DNA from: Nitrospirota bacterium
Lineage (GTDB): Bacteria; Nitrospirota; Thermodesulfovibrionia; UBA6902; DSMQ01
Direction: 5' to 3'
Assembly: GCA_016212185.1 (NCBI GenBank)
Contig: JACRGX010000047.1
Location: 1 to 37,508, forward strand
DNA: 37,508 bases
Made by a program: the position numbers and the translations under genes. The notes below the pieces were generated by a model. That model did no database searches and was not told where the DNA came from. It saw only the letters and a list, made by a program, of their open reading frames with translations. Shown piece after piece: positions 12,839 through 36,888 of this stretch (the first letter of the stretch is position 1; each line of letters starts with the position of its first letter).

Positions 12839-12940
12839 GGGAGATTAGTTCAGTGGCCTATGGCTCGTTGAGCCAACGGCTCATAGAGGAGAGCGTCCCG
12901 ACACGTCGGGAAGGTCGTAGGTTAAAAACTACAGGGGTTT
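12839..12940 (+). pseudogene. Degenerate tRNA-Val copy with palindromic insertions
   Basis: GGGAGATTAGTTCAGTGG matches the 5' end of the intact tRNA at 12958 with two changes, and AGGTCGTAGGTT (12912-12923) matches its variable/T-arm region. In between, the D loop is split by about 33 bases rich in inverted repeats (GGCTCGTTGAGCC, GAGCCAACGGCTC), and the anticodon arm is replaced by the perfect palindrome TCCCGACACGTCGGGA (12896-12911). The T loop is altered, the 3' acceptor strand does not pair with the 5' strand, and there is no CCA. It cannot fold into a working tRNA. Confidence 0.75.
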
Positions 12941-12957
12941 AGAGATATAGGCATTAA

Positions 12958-13032
12958 GGGCGATTAGCTCAGTGGGAGAGCGCTTCCTTCACACGGAAGA
13001 GGTCGTAGGTTCAATCCCTACATCGCCTACCA
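12958..13032 (+). tRNA. tRNA-Val(CAC)
   Basis: A 75-base cloverleaf. The acceptor stem is GGGCGAT/ATCGCCT (one G-U pair). The D arm is GCTCAGTGGGAGAGC. The anticodon arm CTTCC-TTCACAC-GGAAG has anticodon CAC at positions 34-36, reading GUG (valine). The T arm is GTAGG-TTCAATC-CCTAC. The discriminator A is at 13029 and the CCA end is encoded at 13030-13032. It is flanked by a broken copy upstream and a 3' fragment downstream. Confidence 0.95.
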
Positions 13033-13048
13033 TGATTTAGAGTAAGCA

Positions 13049-13085
13049 GGGAGGTCGTCCCGATTCATCGGGACATCGCCTACCA
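13049..13085 (+). pseudogene. 3' tRNA-Val fragment with T arm replaced by a palindrome
   Basis: AGGTCGT, then the perfect palindrome GTCCCGATTCATCGGGAC (13057-13074, sharing its first and last bases with the flanks), then ACATCGCCTACCAT, an exact 14-base repeat of the tRNA 3' end (13020-13033 against 13073-13086). Relative to the intact gene, only the T stem-loop sequence is exchanged, for a TCCCGA/TCGGGA-type palindrome. No 5' half is present, so it is not a gene. Confidence 0.7.
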
Positions 13086-13159
13086 TTTATTAGAAAAAGG
13101 CTGCGTTAATGCAGGATGCAAAATACTAAAGATTCTGCACTATGCGCAATGATTTATTT

Positions 13160-19888: not shown

Positions 19889-19972
19889 TGTCATTCCGGC
19901 TTGTCCGGAATCTTTCTTTGTTTTCAGAAGGATTCCCGACGCTCCCGAAGTTTCGGGATTGCGGGAATGACA
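19889..19972. repeat. Cloverleaf-like GTCATTCC repeat element
   Basis: Outer arms TGTCATTCC (19889-19897) and GGAATGACA (19964-19972) enclose two perfect hairpins: ATTCCGG/CCGGAAT (19893-19911, overlapping the outer arm) and TCCCGAA/TTCGGGA (19943-19958). GATTCCCG near 19931 can also pair with CGGGAAT at 19962-19968. Related half elements occur at 14243 and 34635. It separates DUF503 from rbfA within an otherwise compact operon. Confidence 0.8.
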
Positions 19973-30790: not shown

Positions 30791-30806
30791 TCCCGACAGG
30801 TCGGGA
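30791..30806. repeat. TCCCGA/TCGGGA palindrome
   Basis: TCCCGACAGGTCGGGA: a perfect 7-bp stem with a two-base AG centre. It is one of at least five related palindromes in the window (12896, 13057, 19943, 36829). It lies in the 242-base gap between the two divergent polysaccharide operons. Confidence 0.8.
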
Positions 30807-35670: not shown

Positions 35671-36888
35671 TTACTTCACCACCGGTTCTCCTGTATAGAC
35701 GACCCTGAATTTATTTGTCGGGATTTTTTCCACATTCTTATAAAAGCCGGGAAAAAGCTCATCCCATTTCTTCCGGTTGCCGTCAGATGACGGAGCCAGC
35801 AGTTGAGCCTGCAAAGCCATTGCGCCGCCGTTGTCGCCTAAAAACATACCGTATTTCTGAAGCGCCCGCGCTATAATCTTCCCTTCCCTGTTAAGCCCCC
35901 ATTTATCAAAATCCTTTTCTGTGATTGACGGGTCAAGCTGAAAGCGTATGCCTTCAATAGGATATTGCCTGCCCGCATATTTGCCGTCGCTGCGTGACGC
36001 AGGGGGCAGAAAGATGTTTTTGCCGTTTTCCGCCTGCCGGTTTTTGGGGAAAGTAAATACAAGGGCATGGCGTATCTCCCCTGCCTTTAACTCCTCGGGC
36101 CTGATAAGTCCTGCAATAAGCGGAAAACCCGACCCGCGTCCTCCGCGCACCTGCCATCTCTCCCCTTCTTTGTAATCTCCAACGCCTGTTCCATCAAGCC
36201 GCCAGATATTTAATGTGGTGGATTTTGGCGTCTTGTCATCTATCCAGCCGAATCTTGAAAGCTCCCATGAAATCCCTTTAAAAAAATCAACGATGCAGAT
36301 ATGCCCGTCCTCCGTTGGCTCTTGCCACATGTTTTTTAATATTGGAATCCCTTCATCGCTCCAGCCGTCTCTGTCTTTATCCCATGTGTCAAAAATCTTA
36401 TCGCTTCTCACTTTAAGCAGAGGGATGTTATCAGAATTTACCACCCAGACAGGAATACTGTAAACTTTGGCAAGCCGTATATTTTTAGCCTCTGCTGAGG
36501 CAAAGGCAATAATCTCATCTGAATCAGGATGTGTCAGGGCATCTGCCTTAACAGGTGTATTCCACAGCGAATCGTCTGAAAACGGCCTCCATAAACCGGG
36601 AAGGCTCTGCCCGACAACAGCGGTGTTTGTGTGATCGCCCATATAAAGCTCATGTAAAACCGGTTCTGCCTGCCGCTCTTTTGTATATCCAGAAGCAAAA
36701 ATAAAGCTGACTGCTACTGCAGTAAAAAAAATAGTCAAGGCTGTGCGCCATTGATATTCCCTGTAGCAAGCTACAGGGAATCTAATGTAAGGAATATATT
36801 TTATTATATTCGCTCGCTTGACCCTGCAGTCCCGACACATCGGGACAGGGAATATGCTCGCTATCCATTTAAAATCTTTACGCATCAT
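35671..36888 (-). CDS. Secreted protein of unknown function, start codon uncertain
   Basis: Up to 405 residues. A hydrophobic segment (WRTALTIFFTAVAVSFIFAS) looks like a Sec signal, but it begins about 46 residues in. Everything before it is translated from palindromic repeats (36756-36781 and 36829-36846). The true start may be a TTG within that segment, or the ATG at 36888/36885, which overlaps the end of the upstream glycosyltransferase gene and could be translationally coupled. The mature part contains SDDSLWNTPV, DKDRDGWSDEGIP (a possible calcium loop), RGGRGSGFPLIAGLIRPEEL and IRHALVFTFP, a pattern I associate with an uncharacterised secreted family. No catalytic motif is recognised. 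The context suggests a surface or polysaccharide role. Confidence 0.6.
   Translation of the reverse strand: MMRKDFKWIASIFPVPMCRDCRVKRANIIKYIPYIRFPVACYREYQWRTALTIFFTAVAVSFIFASGYTKERQAEPVLHELYMGDHTNTAVVGQSLPGLWRPFSDDSLWNTPVKADALTHPDSDEIIAFASAEAKNIRLAKVYSIPVWVVNSDNIPLLKVRSDKIFDTWDKDRDGWSDEGIPILKNMWQEPTEDGHICIVDFFKGISWELSRFGWIDDKTPKSTTLNIWRLDGTGVGDYKEGERWQVRGGRGSGFPLIAGLIRPEELKAGEIRHALVFTFPKNRQAENGKNIFLPPASRSDGKYAGRQYPIEGIRFQLDPSITEKDFDKWGLNREGKIIARALQKYGMFLGDNGGAMALQAQLLAPSSDGNRKKWDELFPGFYKNVEKIPTNKFRVVYTGEPVVK
36756..36781. repeat. Perfect 12-bp-stem palindrome
   Basis: ATTCCCTGTAGC-AA-GCTACAGGGAAT, a 26-base palindrome, lies in the 5' part of the secreted-protein frame. Its ATTCCC/GGGAAT ends resemble those of the cloverleaf element. 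Confidence 0.8.
36829..36846. repeat. TCCCGA/TCGGGA palindrome near the start of the secreted-protein gene
   Basis: GTCCCGACACATCGGGAC, flanked by CCCTGCA and AGGG that extend the pairing. It is a relative of the palindromes at 12896, 13057, 19943 and 30791. It lies in the stretch that would encode the uncertain N-terminus. Confidence 0.75.

Follow-up and report, generated by a model that had tools for sequence, protein, structure and literature searches.

The window, that is, the whole 37,508-nt stretch of DNA analysed here, is contig C47 of the 2.33 Mb genome of a Nitrospirota bacterium (G000). ARAGORN and Rfam found a single tRNA gene in it, tRNA-Val(CAC), at positions 12958..13032 of the forward strand (RF00005, 68.3 bits), with an mtnP-like gene on one side, a coaD-like gene on the other and no integrase between these two neighbours. 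The intact gene had remnants of the same tRNA on both sides: in the 5' remnant the anticodon arm, and in the 3' remnant the T arm, was swapped at a fixed position for a constant-stem hairpin of the palindrome class TCCCGA-N4-TCGGGA (written [P] in the flank notation below). The sequence and the coordinates bore out an earlier sequence-only reading of this DNA, which had described an intact tRNA-Val(CAC) flanked by two broken copies. Because the same layout recurs at many tRNA genes of the phylum, often with a GIY-YIG or toxin gene inside, it gives the impression of a trace left by a very small mobile element of an undescribed kind.

The upstream remnant, like all the features of this locus on the forward strand, begins with nucleotides 1-18 of the tRNA (the 5' strand of the acceptor stem and the first part of the D arm; 12839..12856), which showed 89% identity to the intact 5' end and were also found in the congener G001. 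A nested inverted repeat, CCTATGGCTC..GAGCCAACGGCTCATAGAG, is inserted in the D loop (12857..12888) and is followed by GAGAGCG, TCCCGACACGTCGGGA and then AGGTCGTAGGTT, which corresponds to the tRNA from nucleotide 43 onward. The palindrome TCCCGACACGTCGGGA (12896..12911) stands in place of the anticodon arm, a stretch of 17 nt (CTTCCTTCACACGGAAG) in the intact tRNA, and the stretch after it (AGGTCGTAGGTTAAA, 12912..12926), which comprises the variable region and the first part of the T arm, was 93% identical to tRNA nucleotides 43-57. The downstream remnant consists of AGGTCG, matching the variable loop and first T-stem base (nucleotides 43-48; 13052..13057), of the palindrome TCCCGATTCATCGGGA (13058..13073) where the intact tRNA has its inner T arm (15 nt, TAGGTTCAATCCCTA; z = -4.0 for the palindrome folded with its flanks), and of CATCGCCTACCAT (13074..13086), which carries the last T-stem base, the acceptor 3' strand, ACCA and a T (nucleotide 64 onward) and repeats the tRNA 3' end exactly (12/12). 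Altogether, 14 bp of the tRNA 3' end are repeated exactly with a period of 53, a direct repeat of the kind by which tRNA islands are recognised.

Two of the four palindrome flanks matched the tRNA at 12 of 12 positions: at the upstream palindrome the one with AGGTC, at the downstream palindrome the one towards the 3' end. The other two scored 7-8 of 12, since no more than 6-8 nt are preserved in them. Matches of at least 10 of 12 were reached by 0.3% of shuffled tRNAs per flank, so that the chance-level matching named beforehand as a refuting outcome was not found. The upstream replacement was exact at the boundaries of the anticodon arm. The downstream one leaves the outermost T-stem pair and is therefore not a swap of the whole arm; the proposal that both replacements fall exactly at tRNA hairpins held for the anticodon arm and, short of that outer pair, for the T arm.

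The 5' copy of G001 likewise has this palindrome in place of the anticodon arm but no D-loop insert, and the 53-nt downstream 3' copy is missing there. The splitting of the D loop by nested inverted repeats, as first described, is consequently a feature of G000 and not of its congener. Given that G001 shares the palindrome and neither of the other two features, the parts of the locus may differ in age, or the insert and the 3' copy may have been lost in G001. The 5' copy was drifting between the two genomes, and in G003 all that was left of the tRNA region at this locus was its final 27 nt. A CoaD scan of public genomes gave Nitrospirota relatives, of which the nearest that were compared (L046-L050) have no tRNA. 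Members of the D-loop insert family were also present at G000:C8 and in G047, where a broken tRNA-Ala adjoining a GIY-YIG gene has one in its D loop.

Genome-wide tests covered 1.2 Mb of the 2.33 Mb of G000 and at most one sixth of each relative. The compared genomes were mostly drafts, probably metagenome-derived, and the recurrence of the layout in unrelated assemblies argues against an assembly artefact. Thirteen palindromes lay within 200 bp of a tRNA gene when 3.0 were expected (about fourfold; the maximum of 2000 permutations was 12), and 11 of 27 tRNA genes had a palindrome nearby. Copies of tRNA-Val, -Asp, -Ala, -Ile and -Pro had the palindrome at fixed positions; the genomes concerned were G000, G001, G006, G010, G023, G049, G106 and G136. 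The anticodon arm (nt 27-43) was swapped in Val, Asp, Ala and Ile copies (G000, G001, G006, G010, G106 and G136). For the T arm, swapped at nt 50-64 with its outer pair kept, the copies were of tRNA-Val and tRNA-Ala (G000, G001, G006 and G023) and, in G049, of tRNA-Asp. Each of the three tRNA-Pro of G000 had the swap in the D loop (nt 13-19); a tRNA-Asn copy, swapped at nt 19-25, was the exception. Elsewhere the anticodon-arm pattern was rare: it matched in 5 of 296 genomes, and the match in G267 had one mismatch and no tRNA nearby. At L220:5913-6107 (G000:C75), an intact tRNA-Leu(TAG) was centred in an inverted repeat with the outer ends TCCCGA and TCGGGA; this repeat splits the halves of the palindrome and sits inside a broken tRNA-Leu copy, in its anticodon arm. 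As a separate observation, a palindrome-bearing tRNA-Asp remnant was tandemly repeated at L340/L342 (end of G000:C53, start of C95), where the tandem probably breaks the assembly.

Several of these loci carry a gene between the tRNA copies. At the tRNA-Ala locus of G006 the order was a 5' remnant with the anticodon arm replaced by the palindrome, a GIY-YIG gene, the intact tRNA and a 3' remnant with the T arm replaced by the same palindrome. GIY-YIG genes were enclosed in the same layout at tRNA-Asp (G106 and G049) and at tRNA-Ala (G047, G023, G055 and G042), and also lay between the tRNA copies at tRNA-Asp of G000 and between an intact tRNA-Ala and its remnant at L166. Both outer palindromes of one locus were identical in G006 and in G106. 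Partial copies of the same tRNA were present at 8 of 9 tested GIY-YIG loci adjoining a tRNA. The domain was confirmed with Pfam (PF01541, E 6e-15 to 2e-20), and the tRNA-adjacent proteins, of approximately 80-90 aa, matched the GIY-YIG domain alone. As a side observation, TCCCGAGGTATCGGGA occurs as a unit four times in tandem, at a spacing of approximately 57 bp, directly after the GIY-YIG gene at G010:C30:103569-103761.

A second hairpin, GTCG-N3-CGAC, with a variable loop, stood in for the anticodon arm in 13 of the 47 genomes of the order, at 22 places altogether (control, 0). At least 9 of the 22 were within 600 bp of a listed GIY-YIG gene (0.03 expected); these proximity counts rest on listed GIY-YIG genes and the association figures are lower bounds. 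Where the sequence was read at L166, L351, L355 and L372, the broken copies with this swap were tRNA-Ala. Toxin genes occupied the corresponding place at two loci of G000. In G000:C61 (L185:9504-10530), a TumE toxin/HVO_A0114 regulator pair separated the intact tRNA-Ala(GGC) from its 3' remnant, which bears the palindrome; in G000:C44 (L180:18150-18817), a reading frame for a Gp49-like toxin separated tRNA-Val(GAC) from its 3' remnant. The listed open reading frame of the latter gene extends into tRNA-Val(GAC).

The palindrome was also dispersed well beyond the tRNA genes. TCCCGA-N(0-12)-TCGGGA had 109 copies in the genome and its reversed control 3, and the form with a 4-nt loop had 84 and 0, respectively. 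Among all the 6-bp stems with a 4-nt loop in the 1.2 Mb it was the most frequent, with 64 occurrences and 20 for the runner-up. Copy number in the relatives ranged from 0 to 230, the latter in G009. Loops varied while stems were constant, even between orthologous copies (CCAG/CAAG and AACA/AGCA), a constancy that is partly a product of the search pattern used. Derivation of the palindrome loop from the old tRNA loop was considered and rejected: there were some matches (TTCA, CAAG and CCTG), but the exchanges outside tRNAs do not show it.

Stem scores indicated that the palindrome prefers the apices of other hairpins, terminators and repeat palindromes among them; examples are AAGAAAGGCG[P]CGCCTTTCTT, TTAAAAAAGAG[P]CTCTTTTTTAA and TTAAGAGTTA[P]TAACTTTTAA. 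Of 88 sites that differ in their flanks, 18% had a score of at least 7 around the palindrome; when the centre was shifted, the share was 1.4% (Mann-Whitney, p = 4e-8), and when the partners were swapped, 2.5% (p = 3e-4). A clear flanking stem was present at approximately one third of the non-redundant sites and a strong one was lacking at approximately two thirds, so that hairpin siting is a preference and not a rule. The expectation that palindromes coincide with hairpins was thus confirmed, both by the recurrent placing of the palindrome in tRNA arms and D loops, which held for several tRNAs and in several genomes, and by its frequency at stem centres, which exceeded that of the controls, and the even spread that was to refute it did not appear.

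Orthologous sites gave a more direct view of the exchange. A TTAACT hairpin with the loop TTAAAACAT in G001 had the palindrome in G000; ATTCCG-TGTCAGGCA-CGGAAT in G000 was ATTCCG-CAT[P]-CGGAAT in G001; and the T arm GGGGTTCGATACCCC of G001 corresponded to TCCCGACACTTCGGGA in the tRNA-Val(GAC) remnant of G000. At L222:9297 (G000:C77), within a gene that we take to encode a hydroxymethylpyrimidine kinase, the palindrome occupied the place of AGGGGTT in frame, adding 9 nt, and G001 had none; this was the clearest in-gene palindrome with a sister lacking one. Several of the palindromes in coding genes were set aside as ordinary codons (e.g. the pilin-like GTCCCGAAATTTATCGGGA, L196:3202). The direction of change in each orthologous pair is one that we infer from the comparison of sequences. 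The palindrome probably settles at the apices of other hairpins through repair or template switching at opened hairpins. The suggestion of the sequence-only reading that palindromes enter or convert stem-loop DNA therefore stood as regards the exchange of orthologous loops or arms for the palindrome, and how the palindrome enters, including any dedicated mechanism for hairpins, is the presumptive part of it.

The observed layout, with its fixed boundaries, GIY-YIG association, dispersal and apex preference, could be produced as follows. A free-standing GIY-YIG homing endonuclease would break the tRNA gene, and repair of the break by recombination with the element would copy in the cargo and a complete tRNA and leave partial tRNA copies as flanks. 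The breakable arms of these remnants would be exchanged for stable short hairpins, TCCCGA-N4-TCGGGA or GTCG-N3-CGAC, and the remnants might thereby become uncuttable, or unable to mispair with the intact tRNA. We consider it rather probable that the window locus belongs to a family of tRNA-nested micro-elements of this kind, for which we infer a GIY-YIG and hairpin-swap mechanism; we call it a cargo-less relative and not a full-featured member because it has no nuclease gene.

Several observations weigh against this interpretation. Neither a GIY-YIG gene nor a trace of one was present at the window locus, where the spacers measure 19-31 nt and hold no open reading frame. The intact tRNA within the element keeps its arms, so that simple immunity to cutting fails to explain its survival. 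The tRNA-Pro and tRNA-Asn copies showed changes in the D region and no anticodon-arm swaps, and many palindromes were at neither tRNAs nor clear hairpins. No donor-recipient event or cleavage was observed. The palindrome count correlated with GIY-YIG genes (rho 0.45) about as it did with Y1 genes (rho 0.43), both between-genome correlations being confounded by phylogeny. A broader and more tentative possibility, to which we give distinctly less credence, is a structure-directed cassette exchange, in which a bacterial process would swap the apex or arm of a hairpin of any sequence for a standard short hairpin, at tRNA arms, terminators and repeat palindromes alike, with small GIY-YIG (SLX1-like) nucleases as candidate openers.

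Explanations without a mobile hairpin or a GIY-YIG nuclease were also weighed. Selection at the RNA level, whereby the hairpins would insulate the intact tRNA from pairing with the remnant arms in one transcript, would account for constant stems with free loops, for arms that are swapped while the connecting nucleotides stay tRNA-like, and for the same position being served by two unrelated hairpins. Yet terminators and repeats have the same palindrome at their apices, loops are exchanged for it at orthologous sites, and de novo selection would not yield one and the same 12-nt stem sequence, which makes this explanation unlikely. Ordinary decay of tandem tRNA duplications, with hairpins gained through unrelated mutation, would fit the drift of the 5' copy between G000 and G001; being contradicted by the recurrence of identical stems at identical tRNA positions in many lineages, it is the least credible of all.

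Attachment-site footprints had been offered in the sequence-only reading as an alternative; in their classical form, islands would have entered through integrases at the 3' end of the tRNA, leaving the remnants as attR/attL scars. The exact 14-bp repeat in the window and the 3' remnants that bound the toxin-gene insertions of G000 speak for them, and the part of that claim which stood is that tRNA remnants bound small GIY-YIG or toxin insertions. No integrase was present in the insertions of approximately 0.3-1 kb that were read, and those at L180, L185 and L372 contained toxin-type or GIY-YIG genes only. Such sites also leave the 5' remnants, the absence of the 3' copy from G001 and the exact exchange of an arm for a hairpin unexplained, and we regard them as improbable. 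Movement of a REP-like element by a hairpin-targeting RAYT/Y1 transposase, to which the earlier reading had also pointed, appears more improbable still. Short dispersed palindromes in high copy number, Y1 genes in 48 of 61 genomes and the fact that some REP families sit within palindromes (PMC3733652) would agree with it. However, none of 13 Y1 loci had a palindrome within 900 bp, a GTAG tag stood beside the hairpin in just 3 of 76 cases, G004 has eight Y1 genes and no palindrome, and the count correlation was no better than that for GIY-YIG, so RAYT/Y1 was rejected as the mover. CGTC overlapped the start of the palindrome in 27 of 76 cases, partly from the tRNA sequence itself.

Among known systems, the closest experimental precedent for the proposed mechanism would be phage SegB, a free-standing GIY-YIG homing endonuclease that cuts within tRNA genes and yields tandem copies of tRNA and segB (PMC13096335). 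A GIY-YIG gene adjoining a tRNA and tandem tRNA copies are common to both, cleavage being predicted in our case; in contrast to SegB, the elements described here are chromosomal, their remnants have hairpin-swapped arms, their proteins match the domain alone and the window copy has no nuclease gene. The REP repeats with GTAG and CGTC tags (PMC3733652) are likewise short dispersed palindromes of constant stem and variable loop, with some families inside other palindromes, whereas our palindrome was absent from the surroundings of the 13 Y1 loci, seldom has a GTAG tag and is hosted by many unrelated hairpins, tRNA arms included. Rickettsia palindromic elements (RPE), as far as they are characterised where cited in PMC3733652, resemble it in lying in frame within genes, as in the one case at L222:9297, and differ from it in that our palindrome is far shorter (16 bp), mainly intergenic and hairpin-seeking. 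The repetitive hairpin elements (RHE) of sponge mitochondria share the conserved stems, the free loops and the dispersal between close relatives, but are organellar, and exact replacement of tRNA arms is not reported in that work (PMC2800124). In tRNA-integrated genomic islands, too, partial tRNA copies mark the edges of inserts at tRNA genes; here, unlike in such islands, no integrase was seen, the inserts are of approximately 0.3-1 kb and arms are swapped for palindromes.

In the open-access library that was searched, no paper described tRNA remnants with hairpin swaps alongside GIY-YIG genes for bacterial chromosomes, which does not prove that none exists. These elements would add a minimal kind of mobile element, with inserts of a few hundred bases in tRNA genes, the tRNA kept intact and the edges marked by hairpins. 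They would also provide a sequence-based test of DNA secondary structure, rather than sequence, as the target of short palindromic repeats, and would account for a group of broken tRNA copies possibly miscalled by annotation pipelines.

At L172:1300-1560 of G014, the variable arms of two intact tRNA-Ser genes read as the palindrome (TCCCGAGTAATCGGGA and TCCCGAGTAAGATCGGGA). They are a possible origin of the palindrome sequence, or a coincidence, and were not used as evidence because they may be natural class II variable arms. In the window itself, palindromes of this class numbered five when 0.02 were expected. The three outside the tRNA-Val locus, located by pattern count and with no strand assigned, were within an ATTCCCG..CGGGAAT repeat (19943..19958), in a member of the TAAATTYAT..CAAA repeat family (30791..30806) and between CCCTG and CAGGG (36830..36845).
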